A stretch of DNA of 21,762 bases from positions 1-21,762 of the IMG/VR virus record IMGVR_UViG_3300033273_000130, one strand, 5' to 3'. The notes under the pieces were generated by a model, which saw only the letters and a program-made list of their open reading frames with translations, had not been told where the DNA came from and did no database searches. Of the stretch, positions 8,839-15,218 are shown piece after piece. Position numbers and translations under genes: made by a program. Position 1 is the first letter of the stretch, and the number at the start of each line of letters is the position of its first letter. Source of the DNA: a virus.

Positions 8839-11403
8839 ATGGCATATCAAGGTAGCGCACAGTCAGTGGGCTTCCGTAACCGTACCGTGTCTGATCCCTC
8901 AAAGCGTATGCGCCAAGAGGCTGCTCAAGTAGAGCAACGCGGTAAAGAACGGACCTACTCGATGGAGAGGCAAGCTTCTCAAGAGATTCGTGAGATGGAG
9001 CGTGTTAGCAGTATTCAAGCTAGCAACGCTGATTACGAACTAAAAGCACTATCCAAGTTTAGTAATTCAATCACTCGCTTACTAGAAGACGACATCGTTG
9101 ACTTAGAAAAGCGTCGGATTGAAAAAGAGATTGAAGAAGGAAAGAGGATCTATGCAGAACAAGGTCCAGCTTTCCAGCAACAAAGAGATGAGGTTCAAGA
9201 CGCAGCTAATCGCAGCTACGACTTGGATATCAAAACCACACAGATGGCTGACAAAGTCCCTGATGAAGAGGGGGCAGACCGTGTTCGCAAACTTTCTCGG
9301 TGGAAAGAACACGGCTATCAGCTAGCTGCTATGAAAGAAGCCGGTCAGAACTTCGGTGTCTATCTAGACAACGAGTTAGTCAGTAACGAGACTCTGATTG
9401 AAGATCCTTCTGGCGGTCCTTCATTTAGAATCAAAGACTACAAAGGTAAGGATCAGTATGAAGCTGCTGTCAACTACCTACAGAACAATTACATTAAAAA
9501 TCACAACCCTGCTGGTCTCAGCGCCAAGGTTGTCAATACTGTTCTTGTTCCTGGGGTTGACAATGCTACTACTATCCACCGTAAGCAATACTACAGGCAG
9601 CAAAAAATTGAGTCTGCTACCCTGGACCTTGAGGTTGCTAACGTTACCCTTGCTGAATCTCTAAACGGTACTGCTGGTTTTCCTTCTCCTGATGTTGCTA
9701 TCAATGGTTTCTTAGTACAGGCACAGGATGCATACAAACGTCAAGGCGTTGCTAATCCTAGACAAGCTGCTAAGGATCAACTGATCAGCAGTCTGAAATC
9801 TCGGGCTGTTGCTTACCCTCAAAACGTTGATGAGTTAATCGCAATGATAGAAGGTGTCACTATTAAAGGACACCCTGCTGGCGAGAAGAACTTGTTTGAT
9901 TTGTACCCTTCGCAAATTAGTGCTAACGCTCTTACAGCCGCTGCCATCAATCAAGAGTATGAAGATCATAATCTTCGTAAAAGAGACAGCCTAGTTGACG
10001 CTGAGCAAGCTGTAGAAGCTTATAAAAATTCTGTCAATGATGGTTTGTCAGGTAGTGAACAGGTACTAGCTTTACAAGAACTTCAAGAAAAATATGGAGT
10101 TCTGCATCCTAAACTGGTAGCTGATGCTATTAGTCATGTAAACTTGCGTATGGGTGAAGAAGAATCCCGTGCTTATGCCAACGCTCTTGTTCAAGCACAA
10201 GGCGGAGAAATTACCCGTGACCAGCTGCTGAACCTTGACGCTAACGTTGTACAGGAGTTTGACAAGTACGTGGTTGATAGTCTGTTTAGTGATGGTCAGG
10301 AAGACAACATCAAAGAACAGTTTAAAAAGATTGATGGTGAGATTCGTAATGCAGTTAAGGCTGCAGACACGAACACCGCTCTTCGTTATGACGCTATTGC
10401 TGCACGCAGTGCTGCTCAAAGAAGCCTTATAGCTGAAGCTCAACTGCTGTATAAAGCAGCTCAACAAGCTAACAAACCTATTTCTAAATCAGAAGCTATC
10501 AGGCTTGCTGGTGATAGAATTGCTCAGTACATTAAAGAAGGTGAAAAGAACGAAGATAGTCAATACTACTATACCAGTAACGAAGGTTTTAAAAAGTTCT
10601 TTGCACACAACAACCCTACAATTAGTAAGGCGTACGCAGAAACTCAAAACATTGTTGACAGATACAAGTCAAAATCTAATCAAACTAGCAGAGCTGCTGT
10701 CAACATTGACCTTCAAATCCCCGTTAAACGTCTTGAACTTACTTCTAATGGTAAACCTGATTCTTTGTTTTTTGCCCTGGCTCGCCTAGACGGCGAGTCT
10801 GATGCATTTGAAATTCTTAATGCCCAACGTGCTAAGCAAGGACTGGCAGCTGTCAAGCTTCCTTCAGAAGCAGATCTTGTTCAAGATACTCTTAGGCAGT
10901 TCCCTGAACTTAAACCCCTGTTCTTAAACCACCAAAGCTATAACCGTATCAACCGTGGTATGGAACAGATTAGCGGAAGTGTGCCTAACCTGATGAAGGC
11001 TATTGGTTTCCAAGAATCTTCTGGTAACTATAAAGCTGACAACCCTGATGCTTACGGTAAAGATAATCCTGCTTTAGGTAAGTACCAGATTCTCTGGTCT
11101 AATGTCAAAGCATGGGCTAGGCAGTACGGAATGCCTCATCCTGGCACAAAAGAGGATTTTAAAAACAATCCACAGTACCAAGAAACCCTAGCAAGAAAAG
11201 CTTTTGAAGGTTACTTCAAGACTGCTGCTAGCAAAACCGATAATCGTGATGATATGATTCGCATGGTTGCAGCTGCTTGGTATGGTGGTGCTGGTGCTAT
11301 GGATGAATACGATAACCCTAACTACAGTGGTGGCCCTGGCTACCCTAATATGCAAGAGTACACAATGTCTGTTCTTCGTAAATACAAAGGAGGTATGCCC
11401 TGA
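8839..11403 (+). CDS. Internal core protein (T7 gp15-like) with C-terminal lytic transglycosylase domain
   Basis: The product has 854 residues. Residues 1 to about 714 are long, helical and charged, with an N-terminus rich in basic and Gln residues, as in T7 gp15 (747 residues), which lines the periplasmic ejection tube. Residues 715-854 form an SLT-type transglycosylase-like domain. The catalytic Glu is probably E726 in GFQESSGNY, followed by GKYQI (747-751), AAAWYGGAGAM (about 812-822) and a final helix YTMSVLRKYKGG. Such domains cut peptidoglycan during DNA entry. In T7 this domain sits at the N-terminus of gp16, the next gene, not here. The 3' end carries a strong Shine-Dalgarno for that next gene. 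The gp15 assignment is from order, length and composition; the SLT call is from motifs. Confidence 0.85.
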   Translation: MAYQGSAQSVGFRNRTVSDPSKRMRQEAAQVEQRGKERTYSMERQASQEIREMERVSSIQASNADYELKALSKFSNSITRLLEDDIVDLEKRRIEKEIEEGKRIYAEQGPAFQQQRDEVQDAANRSYDLDIKTTQMADKVPDEEGADRVRKLSRWKEHGYQLAAMKEAGQNFGVYLDNELVSNETLIEDPSGGPSFRIKDYKGKDQYEAAVNYLQNNYIKNHNPAGLSAKVVNTVLVPGVDNATTIHRKQYYRQQKIESATLDLEVANVTLAESLNGTAGFPSPDVAINGFLVQAQDAYKRQGVANPRQAAKDQLISSLKSRAVAYPQNVDELIAMIEGVTIKGHPAGEKNLFDLYPSQISANALTAAAINQEYEDHNLRKRDSLVDAEQAVEAYKNSVNDGLSGSEQVLALQELQEKYGVLHPKLVADAISHVNLRMGEEESRAYANALVQAQGGEITRDQLLNLDANVVQEFDKYVVDSLFSDGQEDNIKEQFKKIDGEIRNAVKAADTNTALRYDAIAARSAAQRSLIAEAQLLYKAAQQANKPISKSEAIRLAGDRIAQYIKEGEKNEDSQYYYTSNEGFKKFFAHNNPTISKAYAETQNIVDRYKSKSNQTSRAAVNIDLQIPVKRLELTSNGKPDSLFFALARLDGESDAFEILNAQRAKQGLAAVKLPSEADLVQDTLRQFPELKPLFLNHQSYNRINRGMEQISGSVPNLMKAIGFQESSGNYKADNPDAYGKDNPALGKYQILWSNVKAWARQYGMPHPGTKEDFKNNPQYQETLARKAFEGYFKTAASKTDNRDDMIRMVAAAWYGGAGAMDEYDNPNYSGGPGYPNMQEYTMSVLRKYKGGMP
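11386..11394 (+). promoter_or_regulatory. Strong Shine-Dalgarno for the gp16-like gene
   Basis: AAAGGAGGT at 11386-11394 is a near-perfect match to the 16S anti-Shine-Dalgarno and lies eight bases before the ATG at 11403. It is inside the last codons of the gp15-like gene. It settles the start of the 1271-residue protein and stands out because most other starts in the window have weak or no such site. Confidence 0.85.
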
Positions 11404-14400
11404 TGGAACAAGAGCATAACATTCCTCAATATGGACTGACAGACGCAGATAGAGCAAGTATTGGCAGTCTAATTAATCAAGCTGCTGGTTTTCCTGACCC
11501 TTCACCAGAGGAAGAGGAAGTCAAACCTGTTGAACAAAAGGAACCCGATCCTACATTCCTGTCTGAAGCTGGCGCTGCTATTGCAGGCGGCGCAGCTGAT
11601 GCTGTAGAGAGTGTTGGCGGATTTGCTGAGCTGATAGGTGACACGTTTAAAACTGGTATTAGCCAGCTTTTTGGAGATCCTGTTGACGAAACACAGAACC
11701 CATTTAGTTCTGAGTACGAGTCTGGTGATGCAAACTGGCTCGATATTCCTGATGACTGGGTCCCTGAAAACAAGACTGGACTGGGTAAACTTGCCCGTGG
11801 TCTGGTTGAATTTGGTGCCCTGACTGCTGTTACTGGTGGTATTGGTGGTGCCGTAGGTGGCGGTCTCCGTGTAGGTGCCCGCCTTGGTGGGGCAGCCCGT
11901 GCCGCTGGTATTGGTCTAGACACCCGTCGTCGCCTTAACTTTATTGGTAAGGCTGCTAAAATTGGTGCAGAAGGTGGTGTTGCTGACCTTGTGTCTAGTA
12001 GCTCTGAGACTGAAAACCTTGCTAACCTTCTCAATGAACACACCCCATGGCTTGCCCCTTGGGTCACTGATGCACTTGCAAATGATCCTGAAGATAACCC
12101 TTGGCTTGCCCGTATCAAGACTGTCACTGCTGGTGCTGGTCTGAACTGGGTTGGCTGGGGTATCAGTGCCTTTGCTAAAGGATCTTGGGCAGCAGCCAAA
12201 GCTCGCAAAGCAGGTAAGAGTGTAGATGAAGCTAATGAGATTGGAAACAAAGTCCATGATCAAGAGCTGCAAAAGCAGCAGGATGCTCATACTGCATCGT
12301 CTGACGAGCTTGCTAAGAAGCATGAAGCAGAAGGTCGTGGACAATCTGACAAAACTGACCCTGACAGCCCGCCTGAAGCTTTTGTCAACCCCAATAAGTT
12401 TGACAACACCGAGCGTGCTACTGTAGACAATACAGTGAGTGCTACTCAGGTTGCACGTGAGTCTATTACTGACGCTAAAAACGGAGGTAAAGGCAGGTCC
12501 CACAGCCAGATGCTTACTGATTCTATGATTGAGCAGATTGCACGTGGTGATAAAACCATCAAAGAGACGGTCCTAAAGACCGCCAAAGAGCTAGCAGAGA
12601 AAGCTTTCCAGAAAGGTGGTGATTTAGAAGGCATCGCTGAGATGAACTATGACGATCTTGTCATGCTGTTTGTTAAGCAAACCAGCGAGATGACCTCCAT
12701 GATTGATGAAGGTGGTGACATTGCAGCACGTTTTAAGGAATACTTTGTCGATAAGACTAAGGACGCCCGTGTCTACATCACTGATGGTGACAAAATTGTC
12801 ACAGCTTCTCCTACCCAGAAAGCTGCTCTGACCATGACTATCCGTAGTCTGGCTCTGCGTGCACAGGCTATTGCTAACGGCACCCTCTTTATTGCTGACG
12901 AGCTACCTATCCAGCGTCAGGTCGAGATGACCCTTGATGCCATGAAGGTGGCTATGACTGAGCATAAGAAGATGGGCTTTATGTGGGGTCTTGATGGTAA
13001 ACTTCAGCAGCTGGGTATGGTTCCTAAATCAGTCAAGGAATCTACTCAAAAGCAGATTGAGAAGCTAACCAAAGAACAGGATGAGTATTTCAGTGCTCTC
13101 CACGAGATGAACAAGCAGGGTAAGTATCAGCAGATGCGTGACCTGATGGAGCTGCATAACCTCTCTGATGGCAACATCCGTACTATGGAGCACATCCATG
13201 ACTACCTGCGGGCTAATCTTATGGGTGGTAAGGTCAATGGCAAAGCAATCAAAGGTCGCCTCCGTACAGAACTTCAAAGTGTGTTCTACAACTCTGTCTT
13301 GAGTGGTCCACGGACTATTGTCAAGGCTGTGTTTGGTACTAACCTGATTGGTATCATGCGCCCTTTCCAGTCTTACCTTGGTGCTAGCATCATGCGTAAC
13401 CATAAAGAGGCTGCTATTGCTGCGGCTCAGATTGATGCCCTTGGACAAGCGTTTGCCGAAGGCTTCCGTATGTTTAAATACAACTACGATCTGGGAGCAA
13501 ACCGTAAGACCATGAGTTACGAAGGCAAGTTTGACCTTGAGTCTGACCTTGCTGAGTGGAATAACATGGCTGAGTTCTACCAACGTTATGGCTCAGATGG
13601 ACAAAAACGTGCCTATGATGCCCTGAACGTTGTTGTACAAATTAATACTTCTCCTTGGATGAAGTACAGTCAAAACGCTATGGGTGCTGGTGACTCTCTT
13701 GCTCGTACGATTATTGGTCGTTATGAGATGAGAATGCGTGCAGCACGTCAAGTTATTGATGAGGGTGCTGACCTAAAAGATGTAACTAAACTCGCAAGAG
13801 ATATTGAAGAGAAGTTTAGGACAGGTCCAGATGGTATCTTTAAAAAAGATGCTAATGGTCGTTTTGTGGTGAGTGATAAAGCAGCACGCCTTGCTGGTAA
13901 TGAAGCTGCTATGACTACTGCTCTTGAAGAAAACTTCAAAGGTTTTGAGTTGATCTCAAACATTCCTTTTATGAAGGCATTCTTCCCGTTTGTCCGTACT
14001 GGTTTTAATGCTCTTGAGCTAACCTTTGCTCACACAGATCTTATTAGATTCCGTGATAAATACAAGGATATTATGTCTGGTCAAAACCTAGACAAATATG
14101 GTATCCGTGAACAAGACCTTGCTCAGGCACAGGCTTTGATGAACGGTAGGATCTATATGGGTCGTGGTATTATTGGTATGGCTACTATCGCTGCTTTAGC
14201 AGGTAACCTGACTGGTGACTATCCAGTTAACCAAGAAGACCGTGAAGCTTGGCAGAGAGCTGGTAAAAAGCCAAACTCTTTTAAGGTTGGTAATACCTAT
14301 ATCTCTTATGCTGATCTTGAACCATTCAATACTCTGTTCTCTGCTACAGCAAACTTAATCCAAAACGCACATGTTCTTGGAGAAGCTTACACTGAAAAAT

Positions 14401-15218
14401 GGCTGCAGAAACTAACCTTTATGGTTAGTGCTGTTCTTGTTGACAAGTCAATGCTTTCTGGTGTAGACGATTTGGCACGTTTGATGAACTCAGAAACTTC
14501 TGCTGAACTTCTGACTCAAACTGGTAGCCGGTATATCCGCTCTCACCTCCCTTACGCTGGATTGTTAGGCCAGGTTGGTGATTTAATGGATGCCAATCGA
14601 CGTGAAGCAGACAAACTGACTGAACACTTGGTTAAAAGAGACGCGCTTCTTAAGTCTGTTCTCCCTCCCCAATACGACTACCTGTCTAAAGATCGTACAG
14701 GCAAACCTCTTAGCTATGCAGCAGAGAATCCTTTGGTGCGTTTGTTTAATATGGTTATGCCAATCTCTATTCACAACGCAGAAGGTGATCCAATCAAGGA
14801 GACCCTGGTAGAAATGAGGTTTAACATCCCTCAAGTCACATCTACCTACCAAGGTGAGCCTCTTAATGCTTACGAGCGTTCTGAGCTACAGAAGTACATG
14901 GCAAAAGGTGATATACGGAAAGAGCTTGAAAAGCTTATTTTGAAAGATCCTAAGTTCCGCAAAGACCTTGATGCATACAAAAAAGGTGCTGGTCCCTTCC
15001 AGCCTTTTAGTGCTGAAGCAGGCGAAGCTTTGTATGATCAACAGTTCTACATAAGTGTTAACAAGATTTTCCAAAGAGCTAAGGACAAAGCAATGATTGA
15101 AGTCCTTAGAAACAACCCAGACCTTCAAAGGCGTATTGACGACCGTAATGCTAAGAAAGCAGCAGGTAAGTCTGGTAACATGGAAAGACTTAAAGAACTC
15201 AAAAAACACGGCTACTAA
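11403..15218 (+). CDS. Large internal core/ejection protein (T7 gp16-like)
   Basis: The product has 1271 residues (T7 gp16 has 1318). In T7, gp16 is ejected into the cell envelope and helps pull DNA in across the inner membrane. The N-terminus here is acidic and Pro-rich, with no transglycosylase motif; that domain is on the preceding protein instead. A Gly/Ala-rich stretch (about residues 126-172: GLGKLARGLVEFG, AVTGGIGGAVGGGLRVGARL) and further apolar helices later (GRGIIGMATIAALAGN) could enter a membrane. The remainder is helical and charged. It starts on the last base of the upstream stop (TGATG) behind a strong Shine-Dalgarno. Size, position and helical character support the call; no catalytic motif was seen. 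Confidence 0.88.
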   Translation: MEQEHNIPQYGLTDADRASIGSLINQAAGFPDPSPEEEEVKPVEQKEPDPTFLSEAGAAIAGGAADAVESVGGFAELIGDTFKTGISQLFGDPVDETQNPFSSEYESGDANWLDIPDDWVPENKTGLGKLARGLVEFGALTAVTGGIGGAVGGGLRVGARLGGAARAAGIGLDTRRRLNFIGKAAKIGAEGGVADLVSSSSETENLANLLNEHTPWLAPWVTDALANDPEDNPWLARIKTVTAGAGLNWVGWGISAFAKGSWAAAKARKAGKSVDEANEIGNKVHDQELQKQQDAHTASSDELAKKHEAEGRGQSDKTDPDSPPEAFVNPNKFDNTERATVDNTVSATQVARESITDAKNGGKGRSHSQMLTDSMIEQIARGDKTIKETVLKTAKELAEKAFQKGGDLEGIAEMNYDDLVMLFVKQTSEMTSMIDEGGDIAARFKEYFVDKTKDARVYITDGDKIVTASPTQKAALTMTIRSLALRAQAIANGTLFIADELPIQRQVEMTLDAMKVAMTEHKKMGFMWGLDGKLQQLGMVPKSVKESTQKQIEKLTKEQDEYFSALHEMNKQGKYQQMRDLMELHNLSDGNIRTMEHIHDYLRANLMGGKVNGKAIKGRLRTELQSVFYNSVLSGPRTIVKAVFGTNLIGIMRPFQSYLGASIMRNHKEAAIAAAQIDALGQAFAEGFRMFKYNYDLGANRKTMSYEGKFDLESDLAEWNNMAEFYQRYGSDGQKRAYDALNVVVQINTSPWMKYSQNAMGAGDSLARTIIGRYEMRMRAARQVIDEGADLKDVTKLARDIEEKFRTGPDGIFKKDANGRFVVSDKAARLAGNEAAMTTALEENFKGFELISNIPFMKAFFPFVRTGFNALELTFAHTDLIRFRDKYKDIMSGQNLDKYGIREQDLAQAQALMNGRIYMGRGIIGMATIAALAGNLTGDYPVNQEDREAWQRAGKKPNSFKVGNTYISYADLEPFNTLFSATANLIQNAHVLGEAYTEKWLQKLTFMVSAVLVDKSMLSGVDDLARLMNSETSAELLTQTGSRYIRSHLPYAGLLGQVGDLMDANRREADKLTEHLVKRDALLKSVLPPQYDYLSKDRTGKPLSYAAENPLVRLFNMVMPISIHNAEGDPIKETLVEMRFNIPQVTSTYQGEPLNAYERSELQKYMAKGDIRKELEKLILKDPKFRKDLDAYKKGAGPFQPFSAEAGEALYDQQFYISVNKIFQRAKDKAMIEVLRNNPDLQRRIDDRNAKKAAGKSGNMERLKELKKHGY

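Follow-up and report, generated by a model that had tools for sequence, protein, structure and literature searches.

A transglycosylase-like C-terminal module on the gp15-like protein of a T7-like marine cyanophage and its probable origin by recombination

How the short-tailed phages of marine picocyanobacteria pass the cell wall is little known, and the locus described here raises the question of which ejected protein carries the wall-cutting domain in such viruses and how the domain came to be there. In T7, the transglycosylase comprises residues 1-156 of gp16 according to a published review (PMC8954989), and Pfam SLT is indeed found at residues 15-127 of that protein with E 1.7e-31. The window (the whole stretch of DNA that was analysed, 21,762 bases) is a record of a marine cyanobacterial virus with a T7-like cyanophage structural block, in which scaffold, psbA, capsid, tail tube, nozzle, gp13-like, gp14-like, gp15-like, gp16-like and T7-type fibre genes are present. 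A preliminary description of this DNA had proposed that the domain which opens gp16 in T7 lies here at the end of the gp15-like protein, and that the gene boundary appears to have shifted across it. The first part of this proposal stood up to analysis, and the second did not.

The gp15-like open reading frame (8839-11403) encodes 854 amino acids and sits between the gp14-like and gp16-like genes, as do the genes of phiKMV gp36, SP6 gp36 and the PhiM1 OEP (Table 1). A PHROG search with the window protein gave no match at E<=0.1. An HMM of the body of the protein, with matches listed to E 1.8, found gp15 of S-SRP01, NATL2A-133 and Tangaroavirus isolates, among others. Elsewhere in the window, a small outer-membrane-like beta barrel (Pfam Phage_OMP, a cyanophage family, E 2.7e-38) is encoded at 1152-1520, an HNH endonuclease-like open reading frame (E 1.1e-4) at 1480-1803 immediately precedes psbA and overlaps both of its neighbours, and a psbA-type photosystem D1 gene (Photo_RC, E 6.2e-88) lies at 1766-2845 between the scaffold and capsid genes.

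Table 1. Features of the gp14-gp16 region, with positions in the window
Feature	Position	Strand	Evidence
gp14-like internal virion protein, 237 aa	8123..8836	+	PHROG 15746 internal virion protein, E 7.7e-40; Pfam T7_gp14, E 1.7e-4
Body of gp15-like protein, residues 1-712, helical, presumed periplasmic tunnel part	8839..10974	+	Synteny between gp14 and gp16; model mostly helical
Lytic-transglycosylase-like domain, gp15-like residues 713-854	10975..11400	+	Pfam SLT, E 0.017; structure match, Z up to 12.8; motif residues invariant in 24/24
E726 codon, presumed catalytic acid	11014..11016	+	Invariant in 24/24
GKYQ motif, residues 747-750	11077..11088	+	G747, K748, Y749 and Q750 invariant in 24/24
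WYGG motif, residues 814-817	11278..11289	+	W814, Y815 and G817 invariant in 24/24; G816 nearly so
AAGGAGG, probable gp16 ribosome binding site, within the last gp15 codons (K-G-G)	11387..11393	+	Sequence; distance from the ATG at 11403
gp16-like internal virion protein (1271 aa), in which no transglycosylase domain was detected	11403..15218	+	PHROG 6651 internal virion protein, E 6.2e-287

The SLT-type motifs named in the preliminary description, E726 (within ESSGN), GKYQI at 747-751 and AWYGGAGAM at 813-821, are placed at the C-terminus of the gp15-like protein as it claimed, and position 10981, from which it had counted the feature, falls in residue 715. Pfam SLT (PF01464) aligns with residues 709-824 at 15.1 bits, which is less than the gathering score of 21.3 bits; at E<=0.1, the family is matched by 8 of the 13 sequences of alignment A1, the best with E 9.1e-4. 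Since the score of the window protein lies below the gathering cut-off, while fold and motifs agree, the domain is called SLT-like in this study and not a member of Pfam SLT.

Relatives of the window were gathered as 28 loci by means of domain-derived patterns (PALGKYQI and one near the C-terminus), and some of their contigs are shared with a second set of 12 loci fetched through gp16. Because the 28 loci were found through the domain itself, they cannot show how frequently it is absent, for which only the 12 gp16-fetched loci can be used. Alignment A4 contains 24 rows, namely the window and 23 of the 28 loci (the near-duplicates L039, L041, L045, L048 and L063 being left out), and its relatives are 31-94% identical to the window overall. 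E726, S727, A745, G747, Y749, Q750, W814, Y815 and G817 are identical in all 24 sequences, and both E726 and W-Y-x-G are present in every alignment row used; the residue before the glutamate is K instead of Q in L055, L056 and L058, and L043-L045 vary at WYGG. Mean pairwise identity in the 24-row alignment is 52% for residues 713-854, compared to 64% for residues 1-100, 37% for 101-400 and 31% for 401-700, and the C-terminal part is better conserved within the window clade than residues 101-700. A sequence search of solved structures with the gp15-like protein and alignment A1 returned chance-level matches only, and a scan of genome contigs with A1 gave nine pattern matches with no relative among them.

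Structure prediction, which the preliminary description had singled out as a way of overturning its reading, instead gave a lysozyme-like fold for the gp15 C-terminus. The AlphaFold2 model of the protein, built from the 24-row alignment, has a mean pLDDT of 77, with 10-residue blocks of 80-92 over residues 721-850. By VIA-align, residues 709-854 were placed on Slt, MltC, MltE, Cj0843, MltF and phiKZ gp144, Z being about 12-12.8 and rmsd 2.4-2.8 over 119-129 residues for Slt, MltC, MltE and Cj0843; most of the top rows have 119-127 residues aligned at rmsd 2.5-2.8. Against Slt, MltC and Cj0843, Z reached 12.8 with rmsd of 2.5-2.8 over 121-127 residues, and every one of the best 50 matches listed is an enzyme of lysozyme fold, although rmsd is large for four. 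Foldseek against PDB also ranked lytic transglycosylases first (best E 7.8e-3), with no match at E<=0.001. E726 is found 12 residues past the aligned start at 714, as is E64 from 52 in MltE (by the range ends only), and would fall on MltE E64 if the first twelve positions are gapless; E64 is the residue altered in mutants named among the structure matches. An invariant E726 (24/24) at an offset equal to that of MltE E64 is the pattern of a conserved catalytic glutamate. T7 gp15 and the PhiM1 protein are not among the PDB matches listed for the gp15 model, which is uninformative on the body because the C-terminal domain fills these lists.

The gp16-like protein was examined for a second SLT domain, and none was detected by Pfam or by the domain HMM, including at the N-terminus, where SLT lies in T7 gp16. 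With the gp15-like protein bearing the domain and gp16 showing none, the carrier differs from that of T7, as had been proposed, and the accompanying length comparison is also fair, the gp15-like protein without the domain having 712 residues and T7 gp15 having 747. The domain HMM did not match any of 23 window-clade gp16 proteins (best 4.1 bits, with the top of 1080 shuffled proteins at 8.7). Among 32 gp16 sequences or parts (set A3), Pfam SLT was found in one, that of T7, and M23 peptidase in one, a piece of S-CBP2 gp16. The AlphaFold2 model of window gp16 residues 1-600 has a mean pLDDT of 48.8, too poor for a fold search, and given such a model gp16 may still hide a very divergent transglycosylase domain. 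In each of the 12 loci fetched via gp16, the gp15 immediately preceding it carries the domain, is 854-870 amino acids long and has the invariant glutamate. As a separate observation, S-CBP2 gp16 (L034:3001-6156) seems to be split into two open reading frames, the first of which has the M23 peptidase at 736-807, and S-CBP3 gp16 is also split.

A gp15-like protein with a wall enzyme is not new among T7-like phages, having been published for K1E, K1-5, SP6, phiKMV and PhiM1. The K1E and K1-5 gp15-like proteins are described as holding the lysozyme activity 'found on gp16 in the T7 system', in a review that also mentions the swapping of functional domains (PMC8954989), and SP6 gp36 and phiKMV gp36 (C-terminal) are counted among the virion lysozymes, with activity reported for phiKMV gp36 (PMC5380687). 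In all of these, as in the window, the lysozyme domain is on a gp15-like protein between gp14-like and gp16-like genes. The C-terminal lysozyme domain of phiKMV gp36 ends a protein of 898 amino acids compared to 854 in the window; the two share no sequence match (no blastp match at 1e-3; domain HMM 1.7 bits), and phiKMV gp36 has reported activity whereas the window domain is an enzyme by prediction. In the ejectosome core of the Pectobacterium phage PhiM1, a lysozyme-like domain spans Gly718-Ser903 of the gp15-position protein, the gp15- and gp16-position proteins are octameric and tetrameric (8:4), and the gp16-position protein also contains an endolysin-like domain (PMC11440229). The OEP, which is likened to the window protein by description and not by sequence, thus has its domain at 718-903 compared to 713-854, both after about 700 residues, whereas no endolysin-like domain was detected in window gp16. 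The T7 gp16 N-terminal transglycosylase is the same kind of enzyme domain with the same presumed job, but it is on another protein, at the other protein end, and has no detectable sequence relationship to that of the window. Outside cyanophages, the closest relatives of the domain are, among the matches listed, in Streptomyces phage FlowerPower gp12 (34% identical over about 135 residues; domain HMM 47 bits) and the tape-measure lysozyme of Thermus phage MN1 (30% over about 135 residues; 42 bits), both tail proteins of phages unrelated to the window virus.

Attention is thereby moved from gp16 to gp15 for wall cutting in these phages, and a survey of cyanopodovirus gp15 was carried out, as the preliminary description had suggested. 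It comprised 19 cyanopodoviruses with one record each, chosen from 53 gp16-matched records: NATL2A-133, 9515-10a, P-SSP10, P-SCSP-R27W, S-TIP28, S-TIP37, P-GSP1, P-SSP7, P60, NATL1A-7, SS120-1, Syn5, S-RIP2, S-CBP42, S-CBP4, DSL-LC07, S-SRP01, S-CBP3 and S-CBP2 (CRP-114, ProddE, T7 and phiKMV were also fetched and stand outside this count). Some evidence of a wall domain on gp15 was obtained in 15 of the 19. Pfam wall families above the cut-off were present in the gp15 C-terminal part of six: SLT and M23 in S-CBP4, SLT_3 and SLT in S-CBP3, Glucosaminidase in DSL-LC07, Glucosaminidase and M23 in S-SRP01, Phage_lysozyme2 in S-CBP2, and Hydrolase_2 in S-RIP2. Phage_lysozyme2 was found below the cut-off in P60 and Syn5, and S-CBP42, S-TIP28 and SS120-1 align with P60 across the C-terminal part. 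NATL2A-133 carries the domain of the window, spread over two annotated open reading frames, and a weak remnant of the domain is present in 9515-10a, P-SSP10 and P-SCSP-R27W. No wall domain was seen on gp15 in S-TIP37, P-GSP1, P-SSP7 and NATL1A-7 (4/19), nor by Pfam in CRP-114 and ProddE; silence of Pfam does not amount to absence, since phiKMV gp36, a reported active lysozyme, has no Pfam match at E<=0.1.

Several of these proteins have features of their own. In the single record of NATL2A-133 (L001:5596-8583), the gp15 counterpart consists of four annotated open reading frames with the halves of the wall domain in separate ones, either through an error in the sequencing or because the gene is genuinely interrupted. 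The gp15 C-termini of 9515-10a, P-SSP10 and P-SCSP-R27W (L015:3376-6270, L016:3370-6270 and L035:3367-6270) retain a glutamate and G-x-F-Q. Because these cultured relatives have lost WYGG and the stretch before it, the domain may be dispensable or altered in them, and judging from the sequences it may be decaying. DSL-LC07 (L030:189-3182; residues 875-994) and P60 (L021:693-3695; residues 869-995) have in common a C-terminal stretch of some 120 residues with 39% identity, behind enzymes that differ; this is perhaps a second exchanged module.

Taking these data together, the gp15-like protein very probably consists of a helical body of about 712 residues and a transglycosylase-like C-terminal module of about 140 residues that were joined by recombination and not by a shift of the gene border. 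A swappable C-terminal module fits better because gp15 proteins carry other Pfam wall families at this place, some of them on detectably related bodies. The window-clade body HMM matches S-SRP01 gp15 with 60.8 bits up to its residue 694 (the top of 1080 shuffles being 5.8), and the glucosaminidase match of that protein begins at 774. Likewise, S-CBP3 and DSL-LC07 gp15 align with each other over residues 1-797 and 1-757 (E 2e-37), and the enzymes beyond differ. The body HMM gave 13.7 bits for S-CBP3 (bias 18.1) and 12.2 bits for DSL-LC07 (bias 10.8), matches with strong composition bias, and 4.1 bits for S-CBP4 gp15, which is within the shuffles. On balance, we favour the broader view that related tunnel proteins of cyanopodoviruses exchange wall-cutting modules at the gp15 C-terminus, which would act as a standing slot for at least five Pfam families: SLT-like, SLT_3, Phage_lysozyme2, Glucosaminidase and Hydrolase_2, in some cases with an M23 peptidase in addition. 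If so, wall cutting at entry would evolve as a plug-in, independently of the tunnel and of gp16, and gp15 would be a site of wall-enzyme exchange, possibly matched to the wall type of the host.

The main rival to such exchange is divergence in place: a single ancestral lysozyme-fold domain on the gp15 of cyanopodoviruses would have drifted apart until Pfam splits it into several families, without any swapping. SLT, SLT_3, Glucosaminidase and Phage_lysozyme2 probably belong to one lysozyme superfamily, which speaks for this reading, but M23 and Hydrolase_2 have other folds. For most of its length, the C-terminal part can be aligned among the gp15 proteins of P60, Syn5, S-CBP42, S-TIP28 and SS120-1, and within this group the domain was therefore inherited with the body. 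However, in the window clade most of the body has diverged faster than the domain (31-37% compared to 52% identity), whereas between clades some bodies can still be matched and the enzymes cannot; moreover, S-CBP2 and P60 gp15 have only the C-terminal part in common at E<=1e-3. Divergence in place is thus the weaker rival and unlikely, and exchange of the C-terminus is the best reading because related bodies carry differing enzymes. This also fits a report, which does not name the domain, of phylogenetic incongruence between an internal core protein gene of cyanopodoviruses and their other core genes (PMC4646655). In a literature search that covered few subscription papers, no published account of the variety of wall enzymes carried by cyanopodovirus gp15 was found. 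Such a range within one phage group is less expected than the gp15 position itself, and module exchange in cyanopodoviruses is the part worth following.

Observation covers the domain, the match of its fold, the invariance of its active-site-like residues and the absence of a detectable counterpart on gp16; for the gp15-like protein, we infer ejection, tube formation, enzymatic activity and their timing. On adsorption, gp14, gp15 and gp16 would exit the head, gp15, as the presumed tunnel subunit, would form a tube in the periplasm, and its C-terminal domains would cut the glycan strands around this tube with E726 as the acid, which would let gp16 and the DNA pass. If gp15 and gp16 are present at 8:4, as in the PhiM1 core, each particle would have double the number of cutting domains that a gp16-borne domain would give. 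A purely structural remnant with no enzymatic activity is quite improbable as an account of the domain: the window has GKYQ where the aligned T7 gp16 has GMMQ, and WYGG has been lost in Tangaroavirus isolates, but active-site-like residues are invariant in 24/24 aligned sequences, the relatives being 31-94% identical to the window overall. The compact domain at 713-854 and the named residue E726 offer targets for testing.

The movement of the gp15/gp16 border across an ancestral T7-like gp16 N-terminal domain, as first proposed, is highly improbable and was rejected: the domain does end exactly at the gp16 start and gp15 without it approaches T7 gp15 in length, but the two genes are in different reading frames with a stop-start overlap, the nearest sequence relatives of the domain beyond the cyanophages are tail lysozymes of unrelated phages, and other wall enzymes are found at the same place in other cyanopodoviruses. 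When 50,697 phage records were searched by tblastn with the domain, 35 of them matched at E<=0.01, with no T7-like gp16 among them; the matches came from Streptomyces, Thermus and Tenacibaculum phages, in tail proteins, and from cyanophage NATL2A-133. The domain HMM gave 47 bits to the Streptomyces phage tail protein noted above, and T7 gp16 was absent among the matches listed, which run to E 1.5. Alignment with the T7 gp16 N-terminus by hhalign has the glutamates in register, but with a probability of 0.2%; comparisons of the domain profile with single sequences by this program were weak for T7 gp16 and for most other gp15 C-termini. In the window, the overlap reads TGATG, and the frame offset is identical in 22/22 relatives examined (n=23 with the window; in some relatives, the start taken for the gp16 open reading frame is a TTG or GTG lying slightly ahead of the probable ATG). 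The tail of gp15 is overprinted, since the probable gp16 ribosome binding site sits in the last gp15 codons, and a probable ribosome site inside the gp15 end is also present in part of the relatives.
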